Positions 23,907-64,000 of a stretch of 64,000 bases of DNA are shown here, one piece after another. This DNA comes from Cinnamomum chago (Eukaryota; Streptophyta; Magnoliopsida; Laurales; Lauraceae). The stretch's first letter is position 1, and each line of letters begins with the position of its first letter. Position numbers and translations under genes: made by a program. A model generated the notes under the pieces. It was given only the letters and a program-made list of their open reading frames with translations. It was not told the DNA's origin and ran no database searches. Where the stretch lies: the NCBI GenBank assembly GCA_038049695.1, contig CP142451.1, positions 66,965,501 through 67,029,500 of the forward strand, read 5' to 3'.

Positions 23907-23989
23907 CTGCAAAAGAAAGAAAACAGCAGATAAAAAAAAATCCCTCATAAAAGGAAAGAAGCGGAAATAGAAAAGAAGGAGAATCATAC

Positions 23990-31453: not shown

Positions 31454-31458
31454 CACCT

Positions 31459-35940: not shown

Positions 35941-35944
35941 GTCT

Positions 35945-37800: not shown

Positions 37801-38038
37801 CAATCATAGAGATGCCCTTTGATAAGGATTCCAAAGAATTCTTGATTAAAAGGCTAGATTCTCCGTCCGTCAAACCAATAGACCTGACCAAAGGGGACCC
37901 TGCCGAAGTCCTGCCAAAAGTTTCAAAAGATAGGAGTAAGAAAGCCAAGAACAGAGAGTCTGATCATGAGGAGAAAACCAAGCCTGAAGGGGTCCTAGCC
38001 CGCATACAACATGACGATGACTTGGTAGACGATCACCC

Positions 38039-39328: not shown

Positions 39329-41295
39329 CCCTCCTTGCCCCTTATCGTAGTTGAAGAAATCCCGTAGGAGGACCGAAGAGATGCACTCTGATCAAACTTG
39401 GAACTCAAACACACACCAGCACCTAAAAACACACGAAATGGTGAGTCTACCCCACACAAATTTCGGACGGCTAAAGGCACCCAATGTAAGGGTTTGAAGG
39501 TGGGATCGCCCGTGTCATGAAAGCGTTTTGATTTCAAAAAAAAAAAAAAAAATGGTGACTAGTTTGGGTTTGTGGCCTTTTTAACCTGAGCCAGTAAGCC
39601 CGTAGAGGTATTTACATGCTCAGTGCCCTAAAGCCATCTGGTTTGGGAGTCATTGGCTGAATGCTCGTTACATGGGTTAATTAGAAAGCTTAAGAGACCT
39701 GGGCATTGCACAGTCACATGTTAAAAAAAAAAAAAAAAGAGAAGAAAAAAAAAATTTAGTTAGAAGTCTTGAAAAGAATAAAAGTTTTTTGACTAGTCTG
39801 GGTTCGTAGCCTTTTCAACTCGAGCCAGTAAGCCCGTAGGGGTATTTACATATCTAGTGCCCTGAAGCCACCTAGTTTGGGAGTCATTGGCCGAATGCTC
39901 GTTACATGGGTCAATTAGAAAGCTTAAGGGACCCAGGCATTGCACAGTCACATGACAAAAAAAAAATCTATTAGGATTAGGCCTGCTGAAATGACATGGG
40001 TACTCACCAGATAAACTAAGCAGAAGGTGGTCGAAAACCACAACACCAAAGAAACACGATGACTTGCTACTCCCACACACAGACACAATTGACGAATGAG
40101 CCCCAGGGGTGGTCAAGTGCTTTCCAAGTCCAGCCGAAAAGACTAAGCAGCTACAAAAAAGGGGGCCTGTGAGGGCTCGACCTCCAAATGATAGTTAGGG
40201 AAGAACACGTTACCGCCATGGTGACAATCATGGAACGAGGGTACATCCTACCCACAGCCAAAATGAACACTAGTCTTATGCTGGGGCATTTTTTTTATAT
40301 ATACATTCTTATTAATATCTATCTATCTTACACGGCCTCCCAATTTGGGTCCTCATCGCATACACGATTGTCACGAGCACTCACTAGCCTGCACACACAC
40401 ACTCACCTCATGCATACTTTCGTTACTAACAACTTTTGATTGAATGCAGGAAAGAACACATCCCCTAAGGTATCGATTCCATTTTGTTCTTTCCCAAAGC
40501 TTAAATGCCAAAACGGCCCCCTGGCATTTTTACCGAGAAAGAAAGATACCACCTTAGCCGAACTATGCAGGGGGCCTAAAAATATTAAACTAACGAGTTT
40601 GTTTCGAGACCTTGCAGGGAACCCAACCCCGATCACATCCAAAACATCCCACAAGCTGGGGCATTTTTTTTATTTTACATGCATAATTTTGCACACAACT
40701 CCTCATGGTTTGAAAAGAATACAATGGTGGTAATTAAATTTGAGATATATAAATTATGTCTGTTACGATACTTTATGATGAATTTAATTATAAATGCCTA
40801 TCGTTCACACCTTTCTATGATATCACATGTTGTGCTATTTAAAAAAATGCAGTTATCTTGAACCTCTGTCTTTACATTTGTAGCTAGCAATGTGAATGCC
40901 TTAAAACATAGAACTGTTTAGGCCACAACATCACACACCCAAGCACTCCCATTGTCTGAGAACCCTAAGTCTATATTACATCTCCAGTACGAAATTGTAG
41001 TCATTTGGTCTATTATATAGGTTTCATTCCGGCTATCTCTGATTACCAATGACCTTCCATATGAGATCCATGCCTAGAGCACGAATTTCGAGAAATTCTA
41101 GAAAAATTTCGGCAACATCTCCCCTTGTTTTTTTGGCCCCCCGAAAAATTTCCGGATACAAAAAACCTGTTGCCTGTGAAGAAAAACACTTCATATATTC
41201 CCCGACATCCCCAGAAAAGCTCCTCATCAATCAACCACATCAACCATAACACTTCTAAGGCATTAAACATACTATCTCAACTACACATACATGGC
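39329..41295 (+). other. Element B 3' noncoding region, left part
   Basis: No gene. It holds a duplicated 164-bp unit (39557-39954), A runs, a PPT-like AAAAAAGGGGGCC near 40155-40167, two copies of GCTGGGGCATTTTTTT (40280 and 40655), and two places that look like intron 3' ends (a TACTAAC box at 40424 with CAG at 40449, and CTAAC with TTGCAG near 40617). Confidence 0.6.
39557..39954 (+). repeat. Duplicated 164-bp unit in the B 3' region
   Basis: GACTAGTTTGGGTT to CAGTCACATG at 39557-39720 and again at 39791-39954 (234 bp apart), about 90% alike by eye, each preceded or followed by an A-rich run. Confidence 0.9.
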
Positions 41296-41300: not shown

Positions 41301-43284
41301 TGTTGGGATTGGTGTATGCCCTAAAGCCCACTGACTGCACTCACATCTCTGTTACTGGATATTTATTGGTTATTTAATGGAATGACATCTTTCTCTTAAT
41401 ACTTGTGTATATGTATGGTTGTGTAAGGCCCATTGTTTTCTAGTAATGACTTAGATGTGTAGTGGCTACACACAGTTAGGTCTGAGTCATGGACACTTGA
41501 AACAATAAACTTGTTCATAACTGAGAGATGGAGTTGGGCACTTCATCTTGGTATAAGTTGTAATGAGATACTCTCCTGTATTCAGGGTGACTTACCTAAG
41601 TCACGGGAGGCTTTTCCGGATTTATCTCATTAGTGCATGTGTCATGCATTGAACAGGACCACTTGTAGGTGTGATCTCTAAAATAATACTATCACAGAGA
41701 GAGATCAAATCACCTCTTACTACTGAGTGACCAGTGCTCTTAATCTTGAGCATTTGTGGATGAACTGACGAAGTCGAGTTCTTGTACTTTAATTCACTAT
41801 GGGTGAGATCCTGTTCATGGGTCAACAGCTCTATGTTTTGGGTACTCGGGCTTGATTAGTTGGGACGTGCAAATGCAATATGGAATCTATGCCATCGTGT
41901 GATGGAATGATCGTCCCCTTAGAATTATCCGATTAATCATCAGAATCTAAGATCTTAGTATATGGATGTTCCATATGGATATTGAACTTGTGGATCGCTC
42001 CCTGGATCAAGAGAATGATATCCGGATGATGATTAAGTCAAGGGTATGAAGTTCTAAGGATAAGATGTAATCAAGAAGGTGGATAGTACATCGGTTAACC
42101 TACTTGATTATGGATGTTACATAGAGGGGCATTGTGGTCATTGTACTTGGTAGGTCAAAGACAATCGTCAATTTATGATGAGCTTAATTTGCAATTTAAT
42201 ATTTGTCCCTGGAGTGCAACCATAACTCTTTAGTGGAATGAGTTAGGGTTAAAATGATCCTAATGTTGCTATGGGGTTAGCATGGACATTTTGGTCATTT
42301 TGGGAGCCAAGGGCAAATATGTCTTTTGGTCCCTCTTCTAGCCACTTTCCTATATTGGCATGGTTTCCTAATTTAATTAGATGATATGTGGTTGAATTAA
42401 TTTTGTGGAAGAATAATTTTGAGTTTAAATTCAAATAGGCTTTTTATGGCATACATGAATTTAACTCTAGCTAAATTATTAACTAGTGGGCCATAGTGTG
42501 TTTATCAATCTTGTGGGCCAGCCATAAGGGGAGCCACTTGTGTGAGGTTTCCAAGTATGAGCAGGTATCTTTACTTGGAAGGAACAACTCCTCTTTGGGT
42601 AAGGATTCCTATAATTAAAGGTTACTAAATTTTAGTATCTTTAATTAGAAAGTGTTGCACACTAAAGGGGGCTGGTTGCTTATTTTGTGGGATTGACATT
42701 CCTATTAGAAAGATAACTCTTAAAAGGGAATGTGATCTTTATAAAGAGAGAGGGAATTGCCCTTGGACGTGCAACATAGAAAGAAAGAAAGAAACACCAA
42801 GGAAACCCATTGGCCGCCCAAGACAAGTAGACAGAAACCCACGCCCAGCCCATTGCTGCCTTCTTCTTCTTCATTGGAGAGAGGAGATCAGTTCCTGGGT
42901 TGTTTCCATAAATTGTAAGTTCAGAAAACCCATCTAAGAAAGCATACTCTGATCCCACAATCAAAGCCAATCAGGTTGGGAAGTGGAATAGAAGAGAAGA
43001 TCAAAGGAGAAGTTGCTGCAGAAAATTCCTGCAACACACATTGCTGGTTGCAGGCTGATTTCAGTCCTTTGAAGTCTTTCTTTTCAGAGTTTTGAGGCAT
43101 TCAAATCATCAAGGTAATAGTCCTCTATTATCTCCTTGCATTATACACATGTTGATTATGATTTCATGGAGTTTTATGCATGTTTCATGGCTGGAAATCA
43201 GATCTGGGTTCTTGTTTTTAAAACTTGAAAAACCAGAATCAGCCATGGCAATCCAAGTTCAGATCTGTAATGCATGAACTTTCA
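41301..43284 (+). mobile_element. Solo LTR D
   Basis: A 1,984-bp sequence starting TGTTGGGATTGG and ending GAACTTTCA, flanked by ATATA (41296-41300 and 43285-43289). There is no internal domain, so it is a solo LTR left by LTR-LTR recombination. A TATA-like CTTTATAAAG lies near 42733 on plus, so the LTR probably reads plus. Family not determined; the start resembles Ty1/copia LTRs in my memory, which is weak evidence. Confidence 0.85.
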
Positions 43285-44519: not shown

Positions 44520-47346
44520 TGTAAGACCCCGACCCGAGTGAACCCGTTTAGTGCTAATTAAGTTGCGTGTTAGTTCTAAGCTTGATTAGTGATTTTGACT
44601 AAGTTGGGTTTGGAATAGCTTTTGAATTAGTTTTGGGGAATTTTGATTGCTTTGTGTTAGTAGGGCCCTTTGGGGGTTCCTTTTCATGACATTGCATATG
44701 TTTGAGGATTTATCGGAGATTTTTGCATTCATGATTTTAATCCTGTTTTATTGGTATTGTTAACCCCTTCAACTTTCATGTTGATCCCGTCCCCGTTTGA
44801 GATCCCGAAACTCAATTTCATAGCCTTGAGGGCAAAACAGTCATTGCACACAAAATCTGTACCCAAAACTTGATATTCCCGAAACCCGCGAAACATATAC
44901 TTTTTGGAAACTAGATATTTCGACGATCATTTCTTCCCTCTTCGTCGAATTCATCCGAGGTCCCGAAAGAGATGATTTCAGCCCAATTAGATTTGTTGGT
45001 GGTGGAGCCCACTCCCCACTTGTTTATAAGGAAACCTTTCCCTTCCATTTCCTTTTTCCAGCACAAGAGAGTGAGAACCTAGGGTTTCCATTGCCTTCTT
45101 CTTGCTCTTGCCTTCCATCACCCAATCCACCACCAACCTTGCACAACTTGAGAAGTGGAGATCATCATCTTCTTCCTCATCACCCTAGCTCTCCATTGAC
45201 ACCATTGCTAGAGAAAATCATTCATCACAAGACTCTCTTTGAGCTCACCATTGCCATTAGAGGACCTTGCAAGTAAGTGACCCTTCTCTTCTTCTAGATT
45301 TGTGTTCTCCAAGATTTAGGGAATCTCCATCCTTGTTATTGAAGTTTCTCTCTTCCTATTCTATGTTTTTGACTCTTTAGGGTTTTATTTTGGGATTTTC
45401 CTTGTAGCTTGGACCCTTGATTTGAAAGACTTGTTAGAGCTTGATTTACTTGATTGAAGACCTAAGGCAAGTGGATGATATGATCTTTTAAGAGTTTTCA
45501 TTGTGTTTATGAGAAGTGTAGTTGGTTTTATTAAATTTCACTCATGCCTATTTATTGTTGTCTTGCTTTGAAATAAATGCTCATGAAGAGCCTTATTAGT
45601 GCATTTATGGTCATAGAGGAGTGTTGGTTCATAGTATTTAATCCCCCTTGTTTTGTCTCAAATATATATATTATGTGTGAAATGGTTTCCTTCTTTCTTT
45701 CCTTGTATGGAATGTGATATGGATGGAGGAGAATGAGATGGATATGATGAAGGATTTGATGTAGTTTGAATGAAGTATTAGACTCCTCATTTGATGTATA
45801 AGAAGGGCTAAAAAGGAGGTTGTAAAAAGGAAGAGTTATAGAGGAGCTGAAACCATATCACAATATTTAACTATTTCAATGTTTTGGGACTACTCTTTGG
45901 GAAACCCTCTATGTCAAGGAGATTTGTTAAGCATTGTATGAGGCCATTTGAGGAAGAAACCATATCACAAAGATTTCAATTGAAGTTTTGAAAAATTCAA
46001 GTGTATAAGGAGCCCCGGGATGTCCCCAAACTCGAAGAGTACCAAATTGTAATTTGATTGACATACGGGGTCCCTATTCACTTTAAACAAAAAATTTTGA
46101 ACCCGATACTTTACCGAAATTCCATTTGGTTATTATACTTCACTGATCCCGAGATTTATACTACATGTCTCGTTTTCCCGAAAGCATTGAATTACACTTG
46201 AAACTGTTACTTATCTTGAAGTGCATTGCACCACATGAAATGATAGTGTGCCCTTGAGCACCCTCGTCTTGCCCGTGTATCTATTGTACTTGATTTACTT
46301 GCATATGTATCAATTGTGATTTGACCTATGAGTCGGCACCACTAAGCTTGGATAACCCTGTTGGTCTGATCCACCGACTTGGAGATCCCCCTCTTGTCCC
46401 GCCAGCTGCAGTTTGGATCCCGCTACCCGGTCATTACCGTGGTCTTGTCCCGATGCCGCAGATTGCTACTGTGGTCCCCGATGCCCGGCTCGCTACCGTG
46501 GTCATGTATAGTATATGTATATGTATATGTATTTATATGAGATCCACTGTTTCTCCTCACCTCGAGTGACTGAGATCAGTGCCTAGTTATTGCTCTATCA
46601 CCTTAGTGATAGAGGACTTAGCCTCGTGTGGTTGTCATCTTGCTTGTTTCCGTTTCCTTGGTCACCTTACATGTTTTACATTGCATCCCTGTAATTGAAT
46701 AAATGTTTTATCTCGTTCATAGAAATTGTTATTTGAACAGGTTTACATGTTTTGAAGGTAAATTCATTTATTATCATATTGTCGTTGTATTTTCCTCCAT
46801 TTGCCAAACCGTCGTGTTTGACCTACTCTTTGGTACTCAGGTCCCGTTGTCGGTTATCCCGAGGAGGAGCTTGAGGAGGCGGTCGTAGAACCGCAACAGT
46901 TAGTTGAGTGGTGTGCTGATGACGTCATGTAGACGTTCGCTTGCTATGAGAGACTTATCATTTTGGGAAACTTTTTAACCATTCTTTGAATTGGTATTTT
47001 GTTTATTGGCTTTTGTTGGCCTCTATTTTTGGGAAATGTAATTAAATGATATTTGTATAAACTTTAATTTACTTTGGGTAACATGCTAACGATCATTGTT
47101 CATTCTGATACAGTATTTTATACTTGTGATATTGTCTTTATGACCAAGGATGGTTTGACCATTTGATTTGCTACACGCTTCCGCACTTAATAGAAATGCT
47201 CATTTATGGTTGTGATATCCTCACCGCGGACACCTGTGGGAAATTAAATAAATCGTATGGTATTATTAAACAGATGTGTGGTTCTCATCATCCCAAACAG
47301 TCTCGATCCCGGAGTAGTCCTTCGGGCCCGGTCCGGGGTCGCGACA
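44520..47346 (+). mobile_element. Solo LTR E (Ty3/gypsy, Tekay/Del-like ends)
   Basis: A 2,827-bp sequence starting TGTAAGACCCCGACCCG and ending GGTCCGGGGTCGCGACA, flanked by CATCA (44515-44519 and 47347-47351). The ends share the inverted words GACCCCG/CGGGGTC, as in Del/Tekay-type LTRs. A TATA-like TTTATAAGG lies near 45019 and is followed by a pyrimidine-rich stretch. A short GCTACCGTGGTC repeat lies at 46380-46510, followed by a TATATG run. No internal domain. Confidence 0.88.
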
Positions 47347-47351
47347 CATCA

Positions 47352-47884
47352 TATATGCATCATGCATTAATTGTTCATGCATCATTCCAAAATCCAATTC
47401 CATGCATTTACTCATGTATCCCACATCATTATATGTCAATTAACATGCACACACATCTAATAAAAAAAAGGGGGGTACAAACGTAAAATCATAATCATGA
47501 TTACCACCACCATAATCAAACATCAATGACAAATAGCTAACCATCATAATTCATCATTAAATCCCATAACTCGTCATCACTAATATTGTCATAAAAAATC
47601 ATTACCACATAAGAATCTATAAAAAAAAGAAAAAGAAAAAAGGAATGGGCAAGAGTAAAAATATAAATCAACTTTTGTTAAACTCCAATCAGAGTCTTCA
47701 AACAATAACTATAGCAATAAACTGAATCAACCAAATCCTAAACATTGACTAAAACAGAGGTCACCACCTTTGCCCCCAATACCCTAGATGGAGCCTATAA
47801 CTAACTAAGATGGTCCTAATGACCCGACCTCACATTTATTTAAAGGGAAAACCTAGCCTAAAGTAGAAGCTCCCAAAGAATCAG
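47352..47884 (-). other. Element B 3' region downstream of the 263-codon antisense gene
   Basis: AT-rich, noncoding, with ATCATAAT-type words and an A/G run near 47620. It is probably the 3' untranslated part of the antisense gene. No domain seen. Confidence 0.45.
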
Positions 47885-48676
47885 CTAGAGTGGATGGACC
47901 ATCCCGTTAAAGACAGGGAAGCGAGCTAGCCGCGCTTCCATTCCGACGATGTAAGCTTCAAGTTGCCTTTGCGTTTCTTTAAAATTATCTGGAGGACCCT
48001 GGAAAGCACCACAAATCTCCCGAATACGCTCAAAGTCATTCAGATAAGCAGTGTACACCGGGTGGATAAGTGCGGAAAGGCTAGTATTTTGCATCTCGAA
48101 GTACTTTCTGTAGCGCCGAGGAACGGACGACTCAACTTCGTGGGGGCAAGACATCACCATGAGCTCCAATTGATCCATCCGCCTATGTAAGGTATTAAAA
48201 TCATCAATGGGAGCCCGTACATTGGCAGCCTTTGTAGCCTCCCATACCTCAAACATTCCCCTGACATCCAACATGCTCCATAAAAGAAATTGGAGCACGC
48301 TGCTGATGAAAGCCGGTAGATCCTCTAGAAGCCCATCATAACTATTCAACCTATTCAGAGCGGTCCTGCCCACAATACACAAGTCACCATACAGCCCACA
48401 GATGCCTTTGTACTTCATAACCAATAAATCATATCTGCTGCGTCTAATATCCACAATGTGCTTGTCCATCATTTCTTCAAATTGAAATATACAATCATAG
48501 GTAGCAGGAAGGGAAGATTCATGTTCAATGTAGAATTCCACCCGTTCTTCAGAGCTGTAATATCCCGTCTTTTCAGCCCCAGGAGACCAATATTCGTCCC
48601 CTGGCGAATAAGGCATGCAGGCGGAAGGGCCCCCGACACCATCAACCACAAACGAGGATACTGGAGCCCCAGCCAT
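47885..48676 (-). CDS. Antisense gene of element B, 263-codon coding block
   Basis: Starts at an ATG in good context (TTCAATGGCTGGG) 16 bases after an acceptor-like TATCTACAG (ending 48693) and runs to TAG at 47885. The protein starts MAGAPVSSFVVDGVGG and has a mostly helical middle (EEMMDKHIVDIRRSRYDLLV, and a Leu-rich stretch LPAFISSVLQFLLWSML) with no Cys/His cluster or catalytic motif. I do not recognise the family. The open frame extends further upstream (to 48892), but that part includes the acceptor and GGGCGCC boxes, so I prefer the internal ATG. Its promoter is probably at 62.6 kb, across a first intron that now holds the tandem complex. Confidence 0.65.
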   Translation of the reverse strand: MAGAPVSSFVVDGVGGPSACMPYSPGDEYWSPGAEKTGYYSSEERVEFYIEHESSLPATYDCIFQFEEMMDKHIVDIRRSRYDLLVMKYKGICGLYGDLCIVGRTALNRLNSYDGLLEDLPAFISSVLQFLLWSMLDVRGMFEVWEATKAANVRAPIDDFNTLHRRMDQLELMVMSCPHEVESSVPRRYRKYFEMQNTSLSALIHPVYTAYLNDFERIREICGAFQGPPDNFKETQRQLEAYIVGMEARLARFPVFNGMVHPL

Positions 48677-49084
48677 TGAAATGGAACAAGACCTGTAGAT
48701 ACACATACAAAGATTTAAAAATCTCTCACATAATGAAAGCAAGTCAAAAAGCTTAGACTTCAAGAATTGGAAGGGTCCCAAAGACGACATAAAAAAAAGT
48801 AAAATCAAGGGGCCACTTGGGCGCCCCTGGGGTGGCGCCCAGGTCTGTTTCGAGGCATTCACCCCGAAGAGTACGGGTTCGGCTTTGGTCATTCTACCAT
48901 GCCTTCTTAAATCTATGGATGATATTCTCAGAGGTACTGCACACTGTCCTAAACCCTTTTGAGAACTAAGAGGTCCAAACTACATGCCCATATAATACAT
49001 CATCTTAACACAAAGGAACGAAGCTAACACAATGTTAACAAAAGAAACTCCATGAGATTGAAAATAATGCAATAGTAACCAACT
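48677..49084 (-). other. End of the first intron of the B antisense gene
   Basis: Short exon part (48692-48677), acceptor-like CTACAG (48694-48693), then noncoding DNA with a pair of GGGCGCC boxes (48819-48825 and 48834-48840). Its right edge is the target duplication AAAAG (49085-49089) of the tandem complex. Confidence 0.6.
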
Positions 49085-49977
49085 AAAAGTGTAAGTCCAT
49101 GGGGATCCGAACCCTAGAGGGGGGGTGAATAGGGTGAGCTTCAACTATGACCAATTTTAACAATTTTAACTTCTTAAAAACAAACTAGTCACAAGTGATG
49201 ATTATCAAACAAAATGCGGAAGCTTAAAGAAAACAATCACCACAAAGCAAGCATCATCACACAAGTATTTATAGTGGTTCGGCCTCAATGCCTACATCCA
49301 CTACCGGCTTGTGATCCAACACCCCACCGGATTTCCACTATTTATGCTTTTCAATAGGCTAAGCAATAACCTTTACAATATGCTTTCCAAGGCTAAGCAA
49401 TAACCTTACATTGATGTTTTTCAAGGCTTAACATCAACCTATACAATGTGCTTTTATAGGCTAAGCAATAACCTCTTCAACCACAAGGTTGGTTATCTCA
49501 CTAAGATAGTGTCTTTAATACACTTGATGGAGATTCTATTTAGCTCATTACAATACCTCTTAAATAGGCGGATATGGAAGTGAAAAACTAATACACACTC
49601 ACACTATGAATGCAAAGATGAAAACATATGAAGTGTGTGTGTGTGGTCCTCAATCATTTTGAAAATGAAAATTCATAAATGTATGCCTAAGGCTTTTGAA
49701 AGTTTTAGCTCAAAAACATTTATGATTGAGGATGTAATGCAATCACATGTTAAAAGTAACAACTTGTTAATGATATCAAAGTTACACAAGTTGTATGAAA
49801 TGGATTAGCTCTAAACATGTGATGCATAGGGATGTCAATCAAATCATCAATGAAGCTCAAAACATAAAAATAGATTTGATTGAAATTAGGGGACAAATCA
49901 TATGTAATTATAAAGACAACTTGAAAATGATTTGCCAATCAAAGTAAGGCAAGTTGTGAAACATTAAAACAATAATA

Positions 49978-50560
49978 CACATATGATTTGTAATGATGTT
50001 GGATCCAAAACATAAGATACATTTGAGAGAGATTTTCTTATGATGGAAAAACAACAACCAATGATTCAACAAAGTATATGAATCATGTTACATATTTCAT
50101 TAACATGATCTACTTAGATTTACCAAAGATAAAGTACTACTTTGATGAATCAATGGTGATGTATCCAAAACAATAGATCTATTCAAAATATAACACATGC
50201 TAAGGATACAACACATCATAGGTTAACATGTTACTAAGATTTACCAATGATAAAACAAAACATGAAAACATATGATTTGTAAAGAAGTTGAGTCCAAAAC
50301 ATAAGATACTTTTGAAAGTGATTTTCTTATGATGGAAAACAACAACCAAAGATTCAACCAAGTATATGGATCATGTTACATATGATTTACCAAGTTCTTT
50401 CATTAACATGATCTACTTAGATTTACCAATTCAAGTACTACTTGGATTGAATCATATGGTGTTGTATCCAAAACAATAAATCAACTCAAAACATAAAATA
50501 TGTTAAGGACACAACACAAACATAGTTTAACATGCTAGAAATGATTTACCAAAAATAAAA
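49978..50560 (-). repeat. 291-bp direct duplication inside the LTR of the tandem complex
   Basis: Two paragraphs beginning ACATATGATTTGTAA at 49978 and 50269 share the order of phrases (AAAACATAAGATAC, GATTTTCTTATGATGG, AACAACAACCAA, TTAACATGATCTACTTAG). Also present in solo LTR C and in the other two LTRs. Confidence 0.8.
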
Positions 50561-50743
50561 CAAAAGCATGAAAACATATGATTAAGGAAGGAAGAGCCTA
50601 CTTGGTGGTTTAACTTCATTAATCCAAGCTTTAGCTTTCCTAATCATCCCCTTCATCCCTTGGTTCTTTTCCCTTTTGATATGCCTCAAATCCTCTCAAG
50701 GAGGGGTTAAAAATTCCCAACTTTTGGCAAGGGAAAGAACTCA

Positions 50744-50751
50744 TATTTATA
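50744..50751 (-). promoter_or_regulatory. TATA box of the tandem-complex LTR
   Basis: TATAAATA on minus in the context CCCTATAAATATGAG. Repeated at 55959-55966 and 61174-61181, and conserved in solo LTR C (near 3271-3280). It lies about 27 bp from the nearest GGTCGACC palindrome. Confidence 0.8.
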
Positions 50752-50777
50752 GGGAAAAGTGGCCAACGGCTAGTTCT

Positions 50778-50906
50778 CGGTCGACCGGCAAACAGGCCTC
50801 GGTCGACCGAGAACACACAACGGTCATATTTCTGACCGTTGGTGCTCCCAGGCAATTTTTGCCTGCAGTTGTCTCGGTCGACCGAGACCTGCCTCTCGGT
50901 CGACCG
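50778..50906 (-). promoter_or_regulatory. Paired GGTCGACC palindromes and hairpins beside the LTR TATA box
   Basis: Four copies of CGGTCGACCG at 50778, 50800, 50875 and 50897, arranged as two pairs each 22 bp apart. Between the pairs lie the inverted repeats CAACGGTCA/TGACCGTTG (around 50818-50841) and CAGGCAA/TTGCCTG (around 50848-50865). In solo LTR C the boxes sit at 3306, 3328, 3404 and 3426, with the same 22-bp spacing. Identical copies lie 5,215 and 10,430 bp further right. This has the form of an upstream activating region for a dimeric factor. Confidence 0.85.
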
Positions 50907-51299
50907 GCGACACTGCCGGGACAGCCCCCTTTTTGCAAAATTTCCAACTTTTGCACATTTCAAAGTTATTTCTTTGGGGGACCTTTTGGCCACTAAATCA
51001 AGCTTGAAAAACATGTTTTAAAGATTTTAATGGTTTTTAAAACATGACATAAAAAGCCTAAAAAGATTCAAAACTTTTAAAACAAAGGCTTGCTTGATTT
51101 CTTGAAAACTCTTTTCTAAAAACTAATGCATCCAAGTTTTAAAAACAAATCATGCATAAATCAATACATTTACAAATCTTAAAACCAATGCATGAATAAA
51201 ACAAGATTTCAAGTTTTCTAAAACCAATGCAAGTGTGTAAATCAAATGATGCTTGAATGAAATGCATCCATCAAATTGCAATCTATAAAAACCCTAACA

Positions 51300-51312
51300 A
51301 TCTCCCCCTTTG
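51300..51312 (-). other. Polypurine tract of the tandem complex
   Basis: On minus, GCAAAGGGGGAGAT abuts the LTR start TGTTAGGG at 51299. The wider context CATCAAATTGCAAAGG resembles, from memory, the 3' ends of Ty1/copia elements of the SIRE/Maximus kind, hinting at the autonomous parent. Repeated at 56515-56527; absent after the third LTR, as expected. Confidence 0.8.
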
Positions 51313-54291
51313 CAATTTGATGGCAAACACACTCACCACTGAAAATACACACTTAGTCTTCAGCTCCCCCTCAGCTGGACAAGGCTTGAAATCTTCTTGG
51401 ATGCTCCTTCTCATAGCTTGGGCTCTTGGACTTCAATCTTCATGATGCTTGGAGCTTGATCAACCTTCAAGCTTTCTTTCTTCTTTCTTTCTTTATCCAA
51501 GCATCTTCTTTAGCTTCCAAGCTTTCTTTCTTCTATTAGCTCTCCCCCTTTGACCATGCCTCTTTCTCCCTTTGGCAAGCTATGCATTCTCTCCCTTTGT
51601 AGAAGATCATACACAACTCTCCCCTTAGGAAGCTTGGACATTCTCTTCACCCTATTGAGAACTTGCATAATTTCTCCCCCTTTGCCATTAAATTGCAAAG
51701 GTACCTACACACATGAAACAAGGAAAATACCATTAGTAGCACCTGTTAACAAATGAAATCGAAGATGAAATACATAACAGGCTATCATGTGAGGTAGTAG
51801 TCTCTAAGGGTTCAAAGGCAATCCTAGGGTCAATTTGATCACAACTAATACTTCCTATGAAGGTTTACACTCCCCCTCAATCCATTCTCTTCTTTTGTCA
51901 AACTTTTGACAAAGATTTAACTATTAGGTACAAGAAGAAGATGGTTTAACCAAGTGAGGGTCAACTTCAAAGAAAGGATTAGATTCATTTAACTATCAAG
52001 CTCATATGATCAAATTGCCAAAAGAAAGCAAGGTCTATGGGAAAAGCCATCATGGATATCAATTGGAAAGACAAAGAATACCAATTGAGATTTAGGATAT
52101 GACTATTTAAATCAATCACTCTAAAATGGATTTAAAAATATACCTATTAGGAAAAATCCAAATTAGAGCTATCCATGATATGGGGTTTACTCAAACATAG
52201 CATCAATCAATATTACTAATGAAAATCATATGCTATGTAAGAGTTTGAAAATCATTTCATTCAATCAATAAATATGACTTATTAAGGTGCATGAAAGAGT
52301 GAAATGAAATTCAAACATGAAGCCAACCTCAACTAATAACCAACCAATATTATGAACACATAAACATGGTGGTCATGAGATATACCTATATGAGCAAAGA
52401 GAGGTGGCAACATGAGCATAATGATGCTAATGGTGTGTGACATGGAACAACCATATTACTTATCAAGTTCAATCCAATGCACACAAGATTTATCACATTC
52501 ACAAGAAATCAAATCAATCAAACATTATACCAATTGAATCCAATTGAATTTGATAACATGATAAAGAGCAAGAATGTGACAAAATTCCATCAAGCATCAT
52601 AAATGCATATTCATCACTTTTAAAGATATAACTATAGAGCATAGTGATGAACAAGGTAAATTGCAATGCAAAAGGATATTACTTTGAAATGCATGCAATT
52701 TAAAAAGTGACTAAATCATATGAATTCAACATCTAAGTTATCCATCAAACACATAGAAATATGAGGAATGGATTTCAAAGAGTTTCATATGATCAAGATC
52801 ACTACTATGAAGTTGAAACATGTCTAAGGATGATATCACTTAGAGAATACACATGAATCAACATCATAACCATCCAAATAGAAATGACTATAAAAGCATA
52901 GAGGATGGATTTTAGTTCTAGTATGGTTTCTACAAATGTAATAAATAACACAACCATACATAGAACACTTTGACATTTGCATAGAGAGGATCAATCAACA
53001 CTCAAGATCTAACTCATACCAATCATTAAAAAGAATATTACTATTTAGGCACAAGAAGGTATGAAGTTAAAAAGGATCAATCTATCATGTAACATCTCCA
53101 CTCTTAGCAAATGTACTAAGCTTACAATGCAATGGACAATAGATATGAGGTTTATACCAAATGAACTTAGCACATAAAATCACATATGTACCAAAAAAAG
53201 TTCAAATACAAGATTTTACTATAAAGCACATAAACACTCATTAATTTGCATTAATGAAACTATATACCAAAATAGGCACAAACATGCAAATCAATGAAAC
53301 CATATCCAACCATGCAATGTAAGACAACAAAATCAATTTGCATAAAGAATGTAACTCAAAGAGCAAAGATGCAAATTGTTTGTAAAAATTATTTCATTTC
53401 AAATGATACAATCATAATTAGGCACAAGGAAATAAATTCAAGGAAAATGCTTCAATAAATACAACCAATAAAGCATAGAACATTTTCCAAAGTTTCTCAA
53501 ATCACTTCAATTTATGAAAGAATCATTTATAGAATTAAGAGCAAGTGATTTTGAAAAACAAGAAGTGTACTATTGTAAATTTTCAATTTGTAAAACAATA
53601 GACACTCACAAAGTTTCCATACCAAGAGATATAACTTGAAAATCAATGGAAAACTTAAATAGATTCAAATCATTTGATTCAAAAAGGATATAACTATGAC
53701 AATCATCAAATGATTTTCCAACATCAATTGATCATGAAAAACTAGCTATGAAAGCATTTGTAATCACAATCAATTGATCATGAATAGATATGCACTACAA
53801 GAGATATAACTATATGAACAAAATGCAAATCCATCATGAAAGTAATGCAACCAAAGGATTTTGAAAACCATGAGATATAACTTAGAAGCTCATGAATACA
53901 AAATCAAATGATCACAAAGAAACATTGCATTTTAAAAGAAATGTGACTATAAAGCAACAAAATGCAAATGTATCAAGACCAACAAATAGATATAACTAAA
54001 AAGCATAGGCTGGTCTAGGGGTATCAAGGCCTTAAGGTTACTCAAATAGTCTACCTTTGAAAATTCACCTAAAGCCTTGAAAAGGTTGTCCTTGAAAGAT
54101 CACTTTGAGGACTCACCAACTCTAGAAGATATAACTTGAGAAAGTCTTAGAGTGGTGCAATGAGGCTAGGGAAATTCATTTTCAAACATAGTGGAAATCT
54201 TTAAAAAGATATGCAATAAAAACACAACACTAGGGTTCAAATCTAGCAAGGATCAACTCCGGGTTGTTAAGCCCTAAAATGGAGTAACCCT

Positions 54292-54302
54292 CTCTGATAC
54301 CA
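54292..54302 (-). other. Primer-binding site (initiator methionine tRNA type)
   Basis: On minus, TGGTATCAGAG follows the LTR end ACA by two bases. TGGTATCAGAGC is the usual complement of the 3' end of initiator tRNA-Met used by many plant LTR elements. Repeated at 59507-59517. Confidence 0.88.
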
Positions 54303-54304
54303 CT

Positions 54305-56514
54305 TGTAAGTCCATGGGGATCCGAACCCTAGAGGGGGGGTGAATAGGGTGAGCTTCAACTATGACCAATTTTAACAATTTTAACTTCTTAAAAACAAAC
54401 TAGTCACAAGTGATGATTATCAAACAAAATGCGGAAGCTTAAAGAAAACAATCACCACAAAGCAAGCATCATCACACAAGTATTTATAGTGGTTCGGCCT
54501 CAATGCCTACATCCACTACCGGCTTGTGATCCAACACCCCACCGGATTTCCACTATTTATGCTTTTCAATAGGCTAAGCAATAACCTTTACAATATGCTT
54601 TCCAAGGCTAAGCAATAACCTTACATTGATGTTTTTCAAGGCTTAACATCAACCTATACAATGTGCTTTTATAGGCTAAGCAATAACCTCTTCAACCACA
54701 AGGTTGGTTATCTCACTAAGATAGTGTCTTTAATACACTTGATGGAGATTCTATTTAGCTCATTACAATGCCTCTTAAATAGGCGGATATGGAAGTGAAA
54801 AACTAATACACACTCACACTATGAATGCAAAGATGAAAACATATGAAGTGTGTGTGTGTGGTCCTCAATCATTTTGAAAATGAAAATTCATAAATGTATG
54901 CCTAAGGCTTTTGAAAGTTTTAGCTCAAAAACATTTATGATTGAGGATGTAATGCAATCACATGTTAAAAGTAACAACTTGTTAATGATATCAAAGTTAC
55001 ACAAGTTGTATGAAATGGATTAGCTCTAAACATGTGATGCATAGGGATGTCAATCAAATCATCAATGAAGCTCAAAACATAAAAATAGATTTGATTGAAA
55101 TTAGGGGACAAATCATATGTAATTATAAAGACAACTTGAAAATGATTTGCCAATCAAAGTAAGGCAAGTTGTGAAACATTAAAACAATAATACACATATG
55201 ATTTGTAATGATGTTGGATCCAAAACATAAGATACATTTGAGAGAGATTTTCTTATGATGGAAAAACAACAACCAATGATTCAACAAAGTATATGAATCA
55301 TGTTACATATTTCATTAACATGATCTACTTAGATTTACCAAAGATAAAGTACTACTTTGATGAATCAATGGTGATGTATCCAAAACAATAGATCTATTCA
55401 AAATATAACACATGCTAAGGATACAACACATCATAGGTTAACATGTTACTAAGATTTACCAATGATAAAACAAAACATGAAAACATATGATTTGTAAAGA
55501 AGTTGAGTCCAAAACATAAGATACTTTTGAAAGTGATTTTCTTATGATGGAAAACAACAACCAAAGATTCAACCAAGTATATGGATCATGTTACATATGA
55601 TTTACCAAGTTCTTTCATTAACATGATCTACTTAGATTTACCAATTCAAGTACTACTTGGATTGAATCATATGGTGTTGTATCCAAAACAATAAATCAAC
55701 TCAAAACATAAAATATGTTAAGGACACAACACAAACATAGTTTAACATGCTAGAAATGATTTACCAAAAATAAAACAAAAGCATGAAAACATGTGATTAA
55801 GGAAGGAAGAGCCTACTTGGTGGTTTAACTTCATTAATCCAAGCTTTAGCTTTCCTAATCATCCCCTTCATCCCTTGGTTCTTTTCCCTTTTGATATGCC
55901 TCAAATCCTCTCAAGGAGGGGTTAAAAATTCCCAACTTTTGGCAAGGGAAAGAACTCATATTTATAGGGAAAAGTGGCCAACGGCTAGTTCTCGGTCGAC
56001 CGGCAAACAGGCCTCGGTCGACCGAGAACACACAACGGTCATATTTCTGACCGTTGGTGCTCCCAGGCAATTTTTGCCTGCAGTTGTCTCGGTCGACCGA
56101 GACCTGCCTCTCGGTCGACCGGCGACACTGCCGGGACAGCCCCCTTTTTGCAAAATTTCCAACTTTTGCACATTTCAAAGTTATTTCTTTGGGGGACCTT
56201 TTGGCCACTAAATCAAGCTTGAAAAACATGTTTTAAAGATTTTAATGGTTTTTAAAACATGACATAAAAAGCCTAAAAAGATTCAAAACTTTTAAAACAA
56301 AGGCTTGCTTGATTTCTTGAAAACTCTTTTCTAAAAACTAATGCATCCAAGTTTTAAAAACAAATCATGCATAAATCAATACATTTACAAATCTTAAAAC
56401 CAATGCATGAATAAAACAAGATTTCAAGTTTTCTAAAACCAATGCAAGTGTGTAAATCAAATGATGCTTGAATGAAATGCATCCATCAAATTGCAATCTA
56501 TAAAAACCCTAACA
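54305..56514 (-). mobile_element. LTR 2 (middle LTR) of the tandem complex
   Basis: Flanked by the primer site on its left and the polypurine tract on its right, with no target duplication. It therefore serves as 5' LTR of the left unit and 3' LTR of the right unit. Nearly identical to LTR 1; I noticed changes matching LTR 1 positions near 49557 and 50577. Confidence 0.95.
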
Positions 56515-59500
56515 ATCTCCCCCTTTGCAATTTGATGGCAAACACACTCACCACTGAAAATACACACTTAGTCTTCAGCTCCCCCTCAGCTGGACAAGGC
56601 TTGAAATCTTCTTGGATGCTCCTTCTCATAGCTTGGGCTCTTGGACTTCAATCTTCATGATGCTTGGAGCTTGATCAACCTTCAAGCTTTCTTTCTTCTT
56701 TCTTTCTTTATCCAAGCATCTTCTTTAGCTTCCAAGCTTTCTTTCTTCTATTAGCTCTCCCCCTTTGACCATGCCTCTTTCTCCCTTTGGCAAGCTATGC
56801 ATTCTCTCCCTTTGTAGAAGATCATACACAACTCTCCCCTTAGGAAGCTTGGACATTCTCTTCACCCTATTGAGAACTTGCATAATTTCTCCCCCTTTGC
56901 CATTAAATTGCAAAGGTACCTACACACATGAAACAAGGAAAATACCATTAGTAGCACCTGTTAACAAATGAAATCGAAGATGAAATACATAACAGGCTAT
57001 CATGTGAGGTAGTAGTCTCTAAGGGTTCAAAGGCAATCCTAGGGTCAATTTGATCACAACTAATACTTCCTATGAAGGTTTACACTCCCCCTCAATCCAT
57101 TCTCTTCTTTTGTCAAACTTTTGACAAAGATTTAACTATTAGGTACAAGAAGAAGATGGTTTAACCAAGTGAGGGTCAACTTCAAAGAAAGGATTAGATT
57201 CATTTAACTATCAAGCTCATATGATCAAATTGCCAAAAGAAAGCAAGGTCTATGGGAAAAGCCATCATGGATATCAATTGGAAAGACAAAGAATACCAAT
57301 TGAGATTTAGGATATGACTATTTAAATCAATCACTCTAAAATGGATTTAAAAATATACCTATTAGGAAAAATCCAAATTAGAGCTATCCATGATATGGGG
57401 TTTACTCAAACATAGCATCAATCAATATTACTAATGAAAATCATATGCTATGTAAGAGTTTGAAAATCATTTCATTCAATCAATAAATATGACTTATTAA
57501 GGTGCATGAAAGAGTGAAATGAAATTCAAACATGAAGCCAACCTCAACTAATAACCAACCAATATTATGAACACATAAACATGGTGGTCATGAGATATAC
57601 CTATATGAGCAAAGAGAGGTGGCAACATGAGCATAATGATGCTAATGGTGTGTGACATGGAACAACCATATTACTTATCAAGTTCAATCCAATGCACACA
57701 AGATTTATCACATTCACAAGAAATCAAATCAATCAAACATTATACCAATTGAATCCAATTGAATTTGATAACATGATAAAGAGCAAGAATGTGACAAAAT
57801 TCCATCAAGCATCATAAATGCATATTCATCACTTTTAAAGATATAACTATAGAGCATAGTGATGAACAAGGTAAATTGCAATGCAAAAGGATATTACTTT
57901 GAAATGCATGCAATTTAAAAAGTGACTAAATCATATGAATTCAACATCTAAGTTATCCATCAAACACATAGAAATATGAGGAATGGATTTCAAAGAGTTT
58001 CATATGATCAAGATCACTACTATGAAGTTGAAACATGTCTAAGGATGATATCACTTAGAGAATACACATGAATCAACATCATAACCATCCAAATAGAAAT
58101 GACTATAAAAGCATAGATGATGGATTTTAGTTCTAGTATGGTTTCTACAAATGTAATAAATAACACAACCATACATAGAACACTTTGACATTTGCATAGA
58201 GAGGATCAATCAACACTCAAGATCTAACTCATACCAATCATTAAAAAGAATATTACTATTTAGGCACAAGAAGGTATGAAGTTAAAAAGGATCAATCTAT
58301 CATGTAACATCTCCACTCTTAGCAAATGTACTAAGCTTACAATGCAATGGACAATAGATATGAGGTTTATACCAAATGAACTTAGCACATAAAATCACAT
58401 ATGTACCAAAAAAAGTTCAAATACAAGATTTTACTATAAAGCACATAAACACTCATTAATTTGCATTAATGAAACTATATACCAAAATAGGCACAAACAT
58501 GCAAATCAATGAAACCATATCCAACCATGCAATGTAAGACAACAAAATCAATTTGCATAAAGAATGTAACTCAAAGAGCAAAGATGCAAATTGTTTGTAA
58601 AAATTATTTCATTTCAAATGATACAATCATAATTAGGCACAAGGAAATAAATTCAAGGAAAATGCTTCAATAAATACAACCAATAAAGCATAGAACATTT
58701 TCCAAAGTTTCTCAAATCACTTCAATTTATGAAAGAATCATTTATAGAATTAAGAGCAAGTGATTTTGAAAAACAAGAAGTGTACTATTGTAAATTTTCA
58801 ATTTGTAAAACAATAGACACTCACAAAGTTTCCATACCAAGAGATATAACTTGAAAATCAATGGAAAACTTAAATAGATTCAAATCATTTGATTCAAAAA
58901 GGATATAACTATGACAATCATCAAATGATTTTCCAACATCAATTGATCATGAAAAACTAGCTATGAAAGCATTTGTAATCACAATCAATTGATCATGAAT
59001 AGATATGCACTACAAGAGATATAACTATATGAACAAAATGCAAATCCATCATGAAAGTAATGCAACCAAAGGATTTTGAAAACCATGAGATATAACTTAG
59101 AAGCTCATGAATACAAAATCAAATGATCACAAAGAAACATTGCATTTTAAAAGAAATGTGACTATAAAGCAACAAAATGCAAATGTATCAAGACCAACAA
59201 ATAGATATAACTAAAAAGCATAGGCTGGTCTAGGGGTATCAAGGCCTTAAGGTTACTCAAATAGTCTACCTTTGAAAATTCACCTAAAGCCTTGAAAAGG
59301 TTGTCCTTGAAAGATCACTTTGAGGACTCACCAACTCTAGAAGATATAACTTGAGAAAGTCTTAGAGTGGTGCAATGAGGCTAGGGAAATTCATTTTCAA
59401 ACATAGTGGAAATCTTTAAAAAGATATGCAATAAAAACACAACACTAGGGTTCAAATCTAGCAAGGATCAACTCCGGGTTGTTAAGCCCTAAAATGGAGT

Positions 59501-59519
59501 AACCCTCTCTGATACCACT
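56515..59519 (-). mobile_element. Internal region 2 of the tandem complex (noncoding)
   Basis: A second copy of internal region 1, same length (3,005 bp), with one difference that I noticed (near 58118 against 52903). It has the same primer site, polypurine tract and periodic motif. Confidence 0.92.
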
Positions 59520-61729
59520 TGTAAGTCCATGGGGATCCGAACCCTAGAGGGGGGGTGAATAGGGTGAGCTTCAACTATGACCAATTTTAACAATTTTAAC
59601 TTCTTAAAAACAAACTAGTCACAAGTGATGATTATCAAACAAAATGCGGAAGCTTAAAGAAAACAATCACCACAAAGCAAGCATCATCACACAAGTATTT
59701 ATAGTGGTTCGGCCTCAATGCCTACATCCACTACCGGCTTGTGATCCAACACCCCACCGGATTTCCACTATTTATGCTTTTCAATAGGCTAAGCAATAAC
59801 CTTTACAATATGCTTTCCAAGGCTAAGCAATAACCTTACATTGATGTTTTTCAAGGCTTAACATCAACCTATACAATGTGCTTTTATAGGCTAAGCAATA
59901 ACCTCTTCAACCACAAGGTTGGTTATCTCACTAAGATAGTGTCTTTAATACACTTGATGGAGATTCTATTTAGCTCATTACAATGCCTCTTAAATAGGCG
60001 GATATGGAAGTGAAAAACTAATACACACTCACACTATGAATGCAAAGATGAAAACATATGAAGTGTGTGTGTGTGGTCCTCAATCATTTTGAAAATGAAA
60101 ATTCATAAATGTATGCCTAAGGCTTTTGAAAGTTTTAGCTCAAAAACATTTATGATTGAGGATGTAATGCAATCACATGTTAAAAGTAACAACTTGTTAA
60201 TGATATCAAAGTTACACAAGTTGTATGAAATGGATTAGCTCTAAACATGTGATGCATAGGGATGTCAATCAAATCATCAATGAAGCTCAAAACATAAAAA
60301 TAGATTTGATTGAAATTAGGGGACAAATCATATGTAATTATAAAGACAACTTGAAAATGATTTACCAATCAAAGTAAGGCAAGTTGTGAAACATTAAAAC
60401 AATAATACACATATGATTTGTAATGATGTTGGATCCAAAACATAAGATACATTTGAGAGAGATTTTCTTATGATGGAAAAACAACAACCAATGATTCAAC
60501 AAAGTATATGAATCATGTTACATATTTCATTAACATGATCTACTTAGATTTACCAAAGATAAAGTACTACTTTGATGAATCAATGGTGATGTATCCAAAA
60601 CAATAGATCTATTCAAAATATAACACATGCTAAGGATACAACACATCATAGGTTAACATGTTACTAAGATTTACCAATGATAAAACAAAACATGAAAACA
60701 TATGATTTGTAAAGAAGTTGAGTCCAAAACATAAGATACTTTTGAAAGTGATTTTCTTATGATGGAAAACAACAACCAAAGATTCAACCAAGTATATGGA
60801 TCATGTTACATATGATTTACCAAGTTCTTTCATTAACATGATCTACTTAGATTTACCAATTCAAGTACTACTTGGATTGAATCATATGGTGTTGTATCCA
60901 AAACAATAAATCAACTCAAAACATAAAATATGTTAAGGACACAACACAAACATAGTTTAACATGCTAGAAATGATTTACCAAAAATAAAACAAAAGCATG
61001 AAAACATGTGATTAAGGAAGGAAGAGCCTACTTGGTGGTTTAACTTCATTAATCCAAGCTTTAGCTTTCCTAATCATCCCCTTCATCCCTTGGTTCTTTT
61101 CCCTTTTGATATGCCTCAAATCCTCTCAAGGAGGGGTTAAAAATTCCCAACTTTTGGCAAGGGAAAGAACTCATATTTATAGGGAAAAGTGGCCAACGGC
61201 TAGTTCTCGGTCGACCGGCAAACAGGCCTCGGTCGACCGAGAACACACAACGGTCATATTTCTGACCGTTGGTGCTCCCAGGCAATTTTTGCCTGCAGTT
61301 GTCTCGGTCGACCGAGACCTGCCTCTCGGTCGACCGGCGACACTGCCGGGACAGCCCCCTTTTTGCAAAATTTCCAACTTTTGCACATTTCAAAGTTATT
61401 TCTTTGGGGGACCTTTTGGCCACTAAATCAAGCTTGAAAAACATGTTTTAAAGATTTTAATGGTTTTTAAAACATGACATAAAAAGCCTAAAAAGATTCA
61501 AAACTTTTAAAACAAAGGCTTGCTTGATTTCTTGAAAACTCTTTTCTAAAAACTAATGCATCCAAGTTTTAAAAACAAATCATGCATAAATCAATACATT
61601 TACAAATCTTAAAACCAATGCATGAATAAAACAAGATTTCAAGTTTTCTAAAACCAATGCAAGTGTGTAAATCAAATGATGCTTGAATGAAATGCATCCA
61701 TCAAATTGCAATCTATAAAAACCCTAACA
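59520..61729 (-). mobile_element. LTR 3 of the tandem complex (5' LTR on minus)
   Basis: Nearly identical to LTR 2 (one difference noticed, near 60364). Followed by the duplication AAAAG (61730-61734). As the upstream LTR on minus it would drive transcription through both internal regions. Confidence 0.95.
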
Positions 61730-61734
61730 AAAAG

Positions 61735-62537
61735 TACAGAGTGAGAGTTAAACAAATACCTATGACAAGCAAGCCAACAAACAAAAAAAAAAAGAAAGAA
61801 AAATAAAACCATCTGGGAGCCACCCAGCCTTGAAATATCTCCCATGAAGAGATCATTATTTGACCAAGTAAAGGCTCTTAGTATCTCTGAGTCGTGTCTT
61901 TATAATATACTGCGAGGTTGGAGAGAACCATAATGTGAAAAGACACCCCAAAATCCGGGTTCACAAGTCCTTAGTGTAAACCAGGAAGATAGGCACCACA
62001 AGGGTGGCGCCTACCCTCTCCTATTGATCCTTTTTTAATTAAGACACCCCAATTCTAACCATGAAGGATTTGCCTATAACATAAAACATTCTTGACAAAG
62101 TAAATAAAGAAAACGTGGGACAAAGCATCATCACACCAAGACAAAAGCCAACATTAACACAAGAGCATAAGACTAGTTTCAAATTCAAATCAAAGATTGT
62201 GCACGTGTGTGACAATAACTACAAGTCAAAAGAACTAACAAACTGAACATAATTATGAAATATCAAACAAAAAAAAATCGCCAAACACAAAAAAAAAGCA
62301 ACAAAAAGGCAAAAACATGATCACGGAGATAAAAAGAATGACCAGCCATATAAATCTAAGAGAATAAAAGCAAATTGAACATTAGAATAAGAGTAATTGA
62401 AAGAACAAAAAAAAAGAAAGATGCTTTAATTTGAAATTATATACCAAGTTGATCAACGAAACTATTCAGACAATTAGAGATACGTACATGAGACGTGCCA
62501 TTCATCCCAAAAGAAAGAAGGGTGGAGAGGAAGCTTA
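61735..62537 (-). other. Start of the first intron of the B antisense gene
   Basis: AT-rich noncoding DNA right of the tandem complex, with a GGCGCC box pair (61991-62011). It begins, on minus, at a donor-like GTAAGC (62538-62533). Joined over the insertion with 48693-49089, the intron would have been about 1.2 kb before the complex landed. Confidence 0.6.
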
Positions 62538-62596
62538 CTTTGGAGCAAAGAAGAGCTTGCAAATTCTGAGATTCGAAGTCTGAAAGAGCAGGAGTT
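62538..62596 (-). other. First exon (leader) of the B antisense gene
   Basis: From the expected start about 30 bp after the TATA box to CTCCAAA at the donor. Probably noncoding leader, since the clear ATG lies in the next exon (48676). Element A has a matching first exon of about 105 nt. Confidence 0.5.
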
Positions 62597-62621
62597 GTGG
62601 GAAATCCGTAGCCTTGATTCA

Positions 62622-62630
62622 CTTATATAG
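62622..62630 (-). promoter_or_regulatory. TATA box of the B antisense gene
   Basis: CTATATAAG on the minus strand in the context CATCTATATAAGTGAATC. The GGGCGCC array starts 51 bp upstream (62681), and a short exon with a donor follows downstream. The layout equals that of the antisense promoter in element A. Confidence 0.7.
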
Positions 62631-62680
62631 ATGAGAGTTCGAACCCCATGAGGACTTTAAAAGGACCCAAACTGCAACTT

Positions 62681-63275
62681 GGGCGCCACTCCCTGGGCGC
62701 CCAGGTCACCTGTTTCTCCTAGAATTTGGGGCTTCTCTTTGACAGGGACTCTAAGTGCCAAATATGCAGTCCCACATGGGCACCACACCCTGGGCGCCCA
62801 GATCACCTATTTTCTAGAAATCCAGCCTTCATTCCGACAAGGATTCCTAGTGCGATACGCTGTATACAAATCCTACTCCGAGACTAACTCAAAATTCAGT
62901 CTGGGCGCCACCCCTTTGGCGCCTAGGTCACATGCTTCCCAGAATTCGGAGTTCTACCTTGAGACCAACTCAAAATGCAGTTTGGGCACCACTCCTTGGG
63001 CGCCCAGATCACTTGTTATCCTGAAATCGGAATTCTACTTCGAAACCAACTCAAAGTGCAACCTACTTCCCTGAAGTCAAAAACTCCACTCTAAGACGGA
63101 CTAGGACTGCATCTTGCGTGCCACTCCTCAAACGTTTAGGTGACTTGTCTTCCAGATTCAACATTCTACTTCGAGACGGATTCTGTCTATGCAACTCCAC
63201 CTAGGGGCCATCCCCTGGGCGCCCAAGCTGTCTTCTTTCACAGTCCTTGAACCAAGGTCCAAACAGGCTGGGCAC
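62681..63275 (-). promoter_or_regulatory. GGGCGCC-box array upstream of the B antisense TATA
   Basis: About ten boxes, mostly in pairs 14-15 bp apart: 62681 and 62695; 62778 and 62792; 62903 and 62918; 62984 and 62998; 63217; 63270. Repeat length is about 95-120 bp, shorter than the monomers of the LTR array, but the boxes and their close flanks (TTGGGCGCCACTCCCTGGG) are the same. Confidence 0.85.
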
Positions 63276-63330
63276 CACCCCTGCGGTGCCTATCCATCGC
63301 CTTAGAAAACCAAATGCCCCTTTGAGCCAA

Positions 63331-64000
63331 ACTGTCCTAGAACTTTGAAAAGTTGAACCCGAACAAGAATTGATGATGATCATTGATAAAAATAATAATG
63401 AAAATCATAATAAAAAAACCCAACAACAAAAAAAAATAAAAAAATAAAATAAAAAACTGATAAAAAAAGGGAGAGAGAGAAAGGAAGGAAGTTAAGAGAG
63501 GCACACACAAAGACACGACGCACCTTGTTAAACCAAATATTATCCCATCACATAAGGTCCCGTCACATGCACAACATTAGTCCCATCACGCATACATCCA
63601 TCATCGTGCATTGCACCTCGTGTCGTCTCCATCGATAAAATTGAAGTAATATTTTTGCAAGATGCTGTTACTAAATATTAATGACAAAAAATGCAGAATC
63701 TTCTAGTGTTTGTTCAATACCGGTTCCCAAAGAGAAATTGAAAACACCAAAAGTGGAAGACCTTCAAGTACACTAATGAGGATGAACGACATAAGCTTCA
63801 GCGAACAAACAACACAAAAGCGGCAATGATCCCCAACATTGGATTTACGTAAAGCTCTTGAGGTAAGTATCCCTAACTACGATTTTCATGATTTTACCTC
63901 ACGTATGGAAAATTGAGTCACCGTAGGCCTCCCTTAAGCGCCTATAATCGGTACGGCAACCATAATACCATGTTCTCACGAATTGTGGTGTTCGCTGACT
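63331..64000. other. Element B 3' region, right end of window
   Basis: AT-rich noncoding DNA with an A run and GAGAGAGAAAGG tract (63400-63480). No LTR start of B (TGTAGACACC) appears before the window ends, so the 3' LTR lies beyond 64000. No gene seen. Confidence 0.5.

Follow-up and report, generated by a model that had tools for sequence, protein, structure and literature searches.

A probable antisense accessory gene with a predicted first intron in a degenerate Tat-type retrotransposon of Cinnamomum chago

The stretch of Cinnamomum chago DNA analysed here (64,000 nt of contig CP142451.1, positions 66,965,501 to 67,029,500, called the window below and numbered from its first letter) consists of nested plant retrotransposons. 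One of these, a degenerate Ty3/gypsy element of the Tat clade (element B), carries on the strand opposite to gag-pol a TATA-box-like signal, a splice donor, a splice acceptor and an open frame of 263 codons. Taken together, these features probably make up the 5′ part of a gene of the antisense accessory type named eORF-3′R or aORF-3R. Element B is interrupted by a second retrotransposon (element A), which has an antisense gene of its own, and a third, tandem insertion (element C) splits the predicted first intron of the antisense gene in B. The coordinates of all features are collected in Table 1.

Signals and coding evidence for the probable antisense gene

The sequence-only reading had proposed the TATA box, the donor, the acceptor and the 263-codon block, and all four were recovered on the minus strand at the proposed places. 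The frame opens with ATGGCTGGG, 16 nt into exon 2. A first intron of about 1.2 kb had also been expected once the inserted 12.6-kb complex is taken out, against 978 nt in A; our computation gave 1196 nt for both parts together, or 1201 nt if one AAAAG is retained. The 263-codon frame would hardly be reachable in an unspliced transcript, since the intron parts contain 29 ATGs (18 distal, 11 proximal) and the leader is free of them. The AATAAA below the stop codon resembles a poly(A) signal.

Table 1. Features of the probable antisense gene in element B, of its host element and of the inserted elements
Feature	Position	Strand	Remarks
TATA-box-like TATATAAG	62622-62629	-	occurs once on this strand in the whole window
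Predicted leader exon	62539-62597	-	no ATG; start assumed about 30 nt downstream of the TATA
Predicted first intron, distal part	61735-62538	-	donor GTAAGC beginning at 62538
Predicted first intron, proximal part	48693-49084	-	acceptor CTACAG, last base 48693
Predicted exon 2	47885-48692	-	ATG 48676, 263 codons, TAG stop at 47885; no family match
AATAAA downstream of stop	47835-47840	-	poly(A)-signal-like
Two exon-like frames	43945-43808, then 43720-43451	-	87-nt GTGAGG...TTGCAG gap, in phase; tentative
Six-copy motif array	62676-63290		directly upstream of the TATA; copies at 62676, 62774, 62899, 62981, 63200, 63268
Element B gag-pol, degenerate	31454-39328	+	gag, protease with G-patch, reverse transcriptase, RNase H, RVT_3, integrase; several broken frames
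Solo LTR downstream of B pol	41301-43284		flanks ATATA; ends read by eye
Solo LTR downstream of B pol	44520-47346		flanks CATCA; ends read by eye
Element C	49090-61729	-	LTR-internal-LTR-internal-LTR, 12.64 kb, AAAAG at either side; interrupts the antisense intron of B
Element A	7592-31453		two LTRs 96.2% alike, CACCT duplication at either side
Antisense gene of A	22591-27588	-	TATA 27588; intron 27450-26473; further frames down to 22591
LTR, long terminal repeat.

The frame is longer than expected by chance. An open frame of 263 codons, counted in any of the six frames, was absent from 2000 dinucleotide shuffles of 47342-49089 and present in one of 2000 shuffles of 47885-48892, the frame's own stretch. 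The training set of the codon model comprised 14 frames from gag-pol and from the antisense gene of A; with this model, the ATG frame reached 0.059 bits per codon, the highest score of the six frames. This score was equalled by one of 672 non-coding windows, a rough figure, since the windows are overlapping and some of their sequence also served as background. The last 120 codons alone score 0.113. Upstream of the ATG the same frame stays open (335 aa if counted from its first ATG), and this part scored -0.24 bits per codon and is thus non-coding, according to an earlier codon model in which one of the 14 training stretches (18470-20019) was out of frame; such a score fits the presence of an intron and splice acceptor upstream of the ATG. 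The 263-codon frame itself scored 0.051 in the earlier model, where the top one of 342 non-coding windows was higher (0.070).

A low-confidence, single-sequence AlphaFold2 model of the 263-aa product contains seven helices at a mean predicted local distance difference test (pLDDT) score of 49.6, with residues 1-117 below 50; judged from this model, the product is possibly all-helical. Sequence matches of the product in the PDB (E 0.13, 0.13 and 0.67) are weak and were not used.

It has been proposed for related elements (PMC7264820) that the antisense transcript itself is the working product, which pairs with the genomic RNA and gives rise to small RNAs limiting the element. The low codon score obtained here would suit such a function, whereas an RNA product needs neither a start codon just below the acceptor nor a long frame that, judging by the shuffles above, has been retained in an otherwise broken copy. 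We regard this explanation as very improbable for element B.

The TATA box and the donor were also considered as a pair. A strict pattern, TATAWAW followed 60-160 nt downstream by GTRAGY, was chosen after the signals had been seen, and the two strands of the 64 kb together contain it four times (TATA/donor 62629/62538, 34497/34372, 27588/27450 and 3279/3131). All four are located on the minus strand, and two of them are the starts of the antisense genes of A and B. Acceptors are cheap, and the chance scoring covered the TATA and donor. In B, the minus strand has a T content of 0.24 upstream of the TATA; the distal and proximal parts of the intron have 0.45 and 0.36, and exon 2 has 0.30. For A, the corresponding values are 0.43 (intron) and 0.28 (exon 2).

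Host element and weighing of the gene model

The pol region of element B includes an RVT_3 domain (PF13456, E 4e-18) in the frame 37554-38117, located between RT_RNaseH and integrase. We take this RVT_3 to be the archaeal-type RNase H domain. A second, archaeal-type RNase H in pol is the mark of the Tat clade, and the order RNase H (RH), archaeal RNase H (aRH), integrase (INT) is that of Ogre and Retand; both are found in B. According to Neumann (2019, PMC6317226), Ogre and Retand are the Tat elements in which aRH is placed between RH and INT. Element B is classed as Tat-type Ty3/gypsy, Ogre/Retand-like in organization and degenerate. Downstream of its pol and up to 64000, three insertions were recognised, each with a 5-bp duplication. 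Since the interruptions carry these duplications, the remainder of 39329-64000 can be read as one older sequence that continues B pol.

This places the antisense gene in a region where such genes are known. Antisense frames of at least 250 codons between pol and the 3′ LTR are counted as eORF-3′R or aORF-3R; in B, 263 codons are found on the minus strand below the pol end at 39328, the position being judged relative to pol. Frames of the aORF-3R type are described in Grande, RIRE2 and Retand (Vicient and Casacuberta 2020, PMC7264820), and antisense coding regions in every Retand cluster examined by Vicient (2025, PMC11963269). An antisense gene in B, as suggested from the sequence alone, is therefore plausible both in kind and in its region below pol.

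A further link to the host element is given by a short motif. The motif GGGCGCC-ACCCC-GGGCGCC (22 nt, up to five errors allowed) has 23 matches in the window, compared to at most one in any of 20 whole-window shuffles. Fourteen matches fall at 1540-5534, six form the array directly above the TATA and two, in inverted orientation, lie within the antisense intron (48820, 61992); the remaining one is a loose match in an LTR of A (8803), so that 22 of the 23 are outside A and C. The occurrence of the motif at 1540-5534, in the antisense intron and above the TATA ties the antisense gene to the outer element, and 1540-5534 seems to belong to B as well. The array above the TATA is possibly a promoter array or part of the 3′ LTR of B.

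The motif is of importance for a different explanation. In this view, the antisense stretch derives from a host gene or a different mobile element, part of which was captured by B or inserted into it, and is no accessory gene of B. The product is related neither to the gene of A nor to any Pfam family, and widely differing products of such genes could stem from separate captures. However, the stretch is positioned below pol, the known place of such genes in Tat elements, the motif of the outer element flanks it and is present twice in its intron, and no terminal repeats or duplication were noticed around it, although no dedicated search was made. A captured piece is, in our opinion, quite unlikely.

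Several results weigh against an accessory gene of B that starts at the TATA near 62.6 kb. A comparison of the 5′ part of the window with the 3′ parts gave only motif-length matches of 22-44 bp and no pairing of LTRs for B, the outer ends of which may be located outside the window; the arrays may belong to LTRs of B, with the promoter possibly inside the 3′ LTR and 1540-5534 possibly inside the 5′ LTR. The coding bias is weak, with 0.013 for the first 143 codons versus 0.035 in one reverse frame. At E up to 10 the 263-aa product has no Pfam match, neither to the plant mobile domain (PF10536) nor to Transposase_28 (PF04195) nor to any other family. Relatives of the protein were found neither in a collection of viral contigs nor in bacterial and archaeal genome contigs, in which four stretches matched a pattern and none of them encodes a relative; collections of this composition say little. 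The donor has A rather than G at position -1. T-rich sequence is also found outside introns, namely upstream in A (0.40) and below the stop codon in B (0.43), and T-richness alone is therefore unspecific. Finally, the strict TATA-donor pair was obtained in 69 of 2000 shuffles of 61735-64000 and a looser pattern in 212 of 2000. With these counts and a pattern defined post hoc, the pair is suggestive for B alone and not a proof.

The same shuffle counts would agree with a coding frame whose gene starts elsewhere, with the signals at 62.5-62.6 kb (TATA, leader, donor) being due to chance or belonging to another feature and the real promoter nearer to exon 2; in fact, 392 nt of B are present between exon 2 and C. 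However, transcription from a proximal start must pass 11 upstream ATGs in these 392 nt, the TATA and donor are found at the step into T-rich sequence, and A shows the identical order of signals. A start elsewhere is unlikely under these circumstances, and we retain the distal TATA as the probable promoter of the antisense gene.

Comparison with element A and with known antisense genes

The sequence-only reading had assigned the same architecture to the antisense genes of A and B. This is true in outline only: both genes have a TATA box, a short leader (about 60 nt in B and 105 nt in A, from the assumed start) and a T-rich first intron of about 1 kb, in this order. In detail, the two layouts differ. 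The start codon of A is situated inside the leader exon (ATGGCTTCAA/GTAAGT), that of B inside exon 2, and the product of exon 2 in A has a plant mobile domain (PF10536, E 4e-13). That the two proteins are not alike, as was also remarked from the sequence, was borne out by BLASTP of the B product against the three antisense frames of A, which revealed no relation (best E 1.2, 0.86 and 2.2). Nor did the two genes match convincingly in promoter or intron sequence (best E 0.057 over 27 nt). The suggestion that the layout is more stable than the product would rest on two genes, which are too few to judge. In the antisense gene of A, the plant-mobile-domain frame stops at 25082-25247 and an overlapping frame continues with similar-looking sequence; there is a frame break or a splice at this place.

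Among the known systems, Ogre is close to B in that it is a Tat-clade Ty3/gypsy element with an antisense gene (eORF-3′R) below pol. Among the frames of 150 aa or more in B, those of the protease and the reverse transcriptase are separate. The plant mobile domain is reported for 57% of Ogre and Transposase_28 for 23% of Retand (PMC6317226). The gene of A belongs to the plant-mobile-domain type of Ogre eORF-3′R, whereas the product of B lacks this domain as well as Transposase_28, the domain of the Retand antisense frame. In Ogre the gag-protease and reverse transcriptase frames are separated by an intron-like gap, given as 274 bp on average (PMC6317226). The corresponding interval of B (35055-36257) is longer; no frame of 150 aa was listed there in this degenerate copy, and its three plus frames contain 9, 21 and 35 stops. 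The primer of Ogre is tRNA-Arg (PMC9289625). For Retand, the published span of the regions between pol and 3′ LTR is 2.9-6.6 kb. The maize element Grande likewise has an antisense gene, gene23, in a long 3′ internal region; for gene23 an own promoter is described (PMC7264820), whereas in B we find promoter-like signals only.

Outside the plants, HBZ of human T-cell leukemia virus type 1 (HTLV-1) is an antisense accessory gene of a retroelement whose antisense promoter is at the 3′ end, and this likeness is one of layout only. Splicing is a feature of HBZ. The gene is named in PMC11963269; unlike B, HTLV-1 is an animal retrovirus, and its antisense promoter is inside the 3′ LTR (PMC7264820).

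An antisense slot filled with widely divergent products is already in print (PMC6317226, PMC7264820, PMC11963269), and the highly divergent proteins were considered to be either fast evolving or separately acquired (Neumann 2019, PMC6317226). Antisense and spliced transcripts were recommended as a target for searches (PMC7264820). The relevant passage of a 2025 review (PMC12786077) states that plant LTR retrotransposons are generally intron-less and names Ogre and EVADE as exceptions, not antisense genes. No description of introns in antisense genes was recognised among the matches listed in our literature search, with Grande 2013 and Steinbauerova 2011 lying outside it. The shared layout of leader and intron appears to be the modestly new part, in a gene that is otherwise ordinary in kind.

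Proposed expression, inserted elements and minor features

In intact relatives of B, the gene would have a TATA promoter to itself, close to the 3′ end of the element, from which RNA polymerase II would transcribe it in the direction opposite to gag-pol. Splicing would remove the first intron of 1.2 kb and join the ATG-free leader to exon 2, and the spliced transcript would be translated into the 263-aa, possibly all-helical protein. This protein may act in the nucleus on transcription or silencing of the element, as suggested for related genes. It is established for retrotransposition that a sense intron can be lost when the element passes through RNA, whereas an antisense intron persists. 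Because the gene is antisense and its intron would not be recognised in the genomic (sense) RNA, the intron is expected to survive reverse transcription, and an intron-bearing accessory gene is best kept in antisense for this reason. One may go further and imagine a fixed antisense cassette of the Tat clade, consisting of TATA, short leader and T-rich intron of about 1 kb, into which unrelated helical or plant-mobile-domain proteins are swapped, the antisense placement existing because it is the way for a retroelement to carry an intron-bearing gene through the RNA stage. As a whole, this idea is distinctly speculative and rather unlikely.

Large plant retrotransposons commonly have antisense accessory genes, the function of which is still unsettled (PMC7264820, PMC11963269). 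Leaders and introns can escape surveys in which frames are listed by length and domain (PMC6317226, PMC11963269). Should the layout of leader and intron prove general among families, true gene starts would become predictable from the sequence, and it could be asked whether the protein changes within a lasting cassette. The window supplies two gene models, those of A and B, that can be tested by cDNA.

In the present copy, the antisense gene is very probably dead. In element C, three LTRs of 2210 bp alternate with two internal parts of 3005 bp. Its units are 99.9% alike, and it has a single AAAAG duplication and no listed frame of 150 aa; it is a recent tandem insertion in minus orientation. 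The 11-nt primer-site motifs of C at 54302 and 59517, which resemble the presumed site for initiator methionine tRNA (iMet), are located on the minus strand, and C thus has the same direction as the antisense gene. Inserted in the intron in this direction, C would bring the start and stop signals of its own LTRs, and the transcript would very probably be cut. A degenerate solo copy of the C LTR, 86% alike, is found at 1590-3832 in the 5′ part of the window.

The two exon-like frames between the two solo LTRs may belong to a second antisense gene or form the downstream (3′) part of the antisense gene in B. They have codon scores of 0.200 and 0.198 and are kept as tentative, because the frames on the opposite strand score higher (0.206 and 0.279). 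Pfam gave no match for the first frame and only a weak one for the second (DUF5955, E 0.023, below its cut-off). An earlier end of exon 2 at the donor-like GAG/GTATGG (GT at 48247), by which these small exons would be joined, was dropped, as it loses the 120 better-scoring codons. A tRNA scan and an Rfam scan remained empty. Just downstream of B pol, two direct repeats of 195 bp, 86% alike, are located at 39538-39966.

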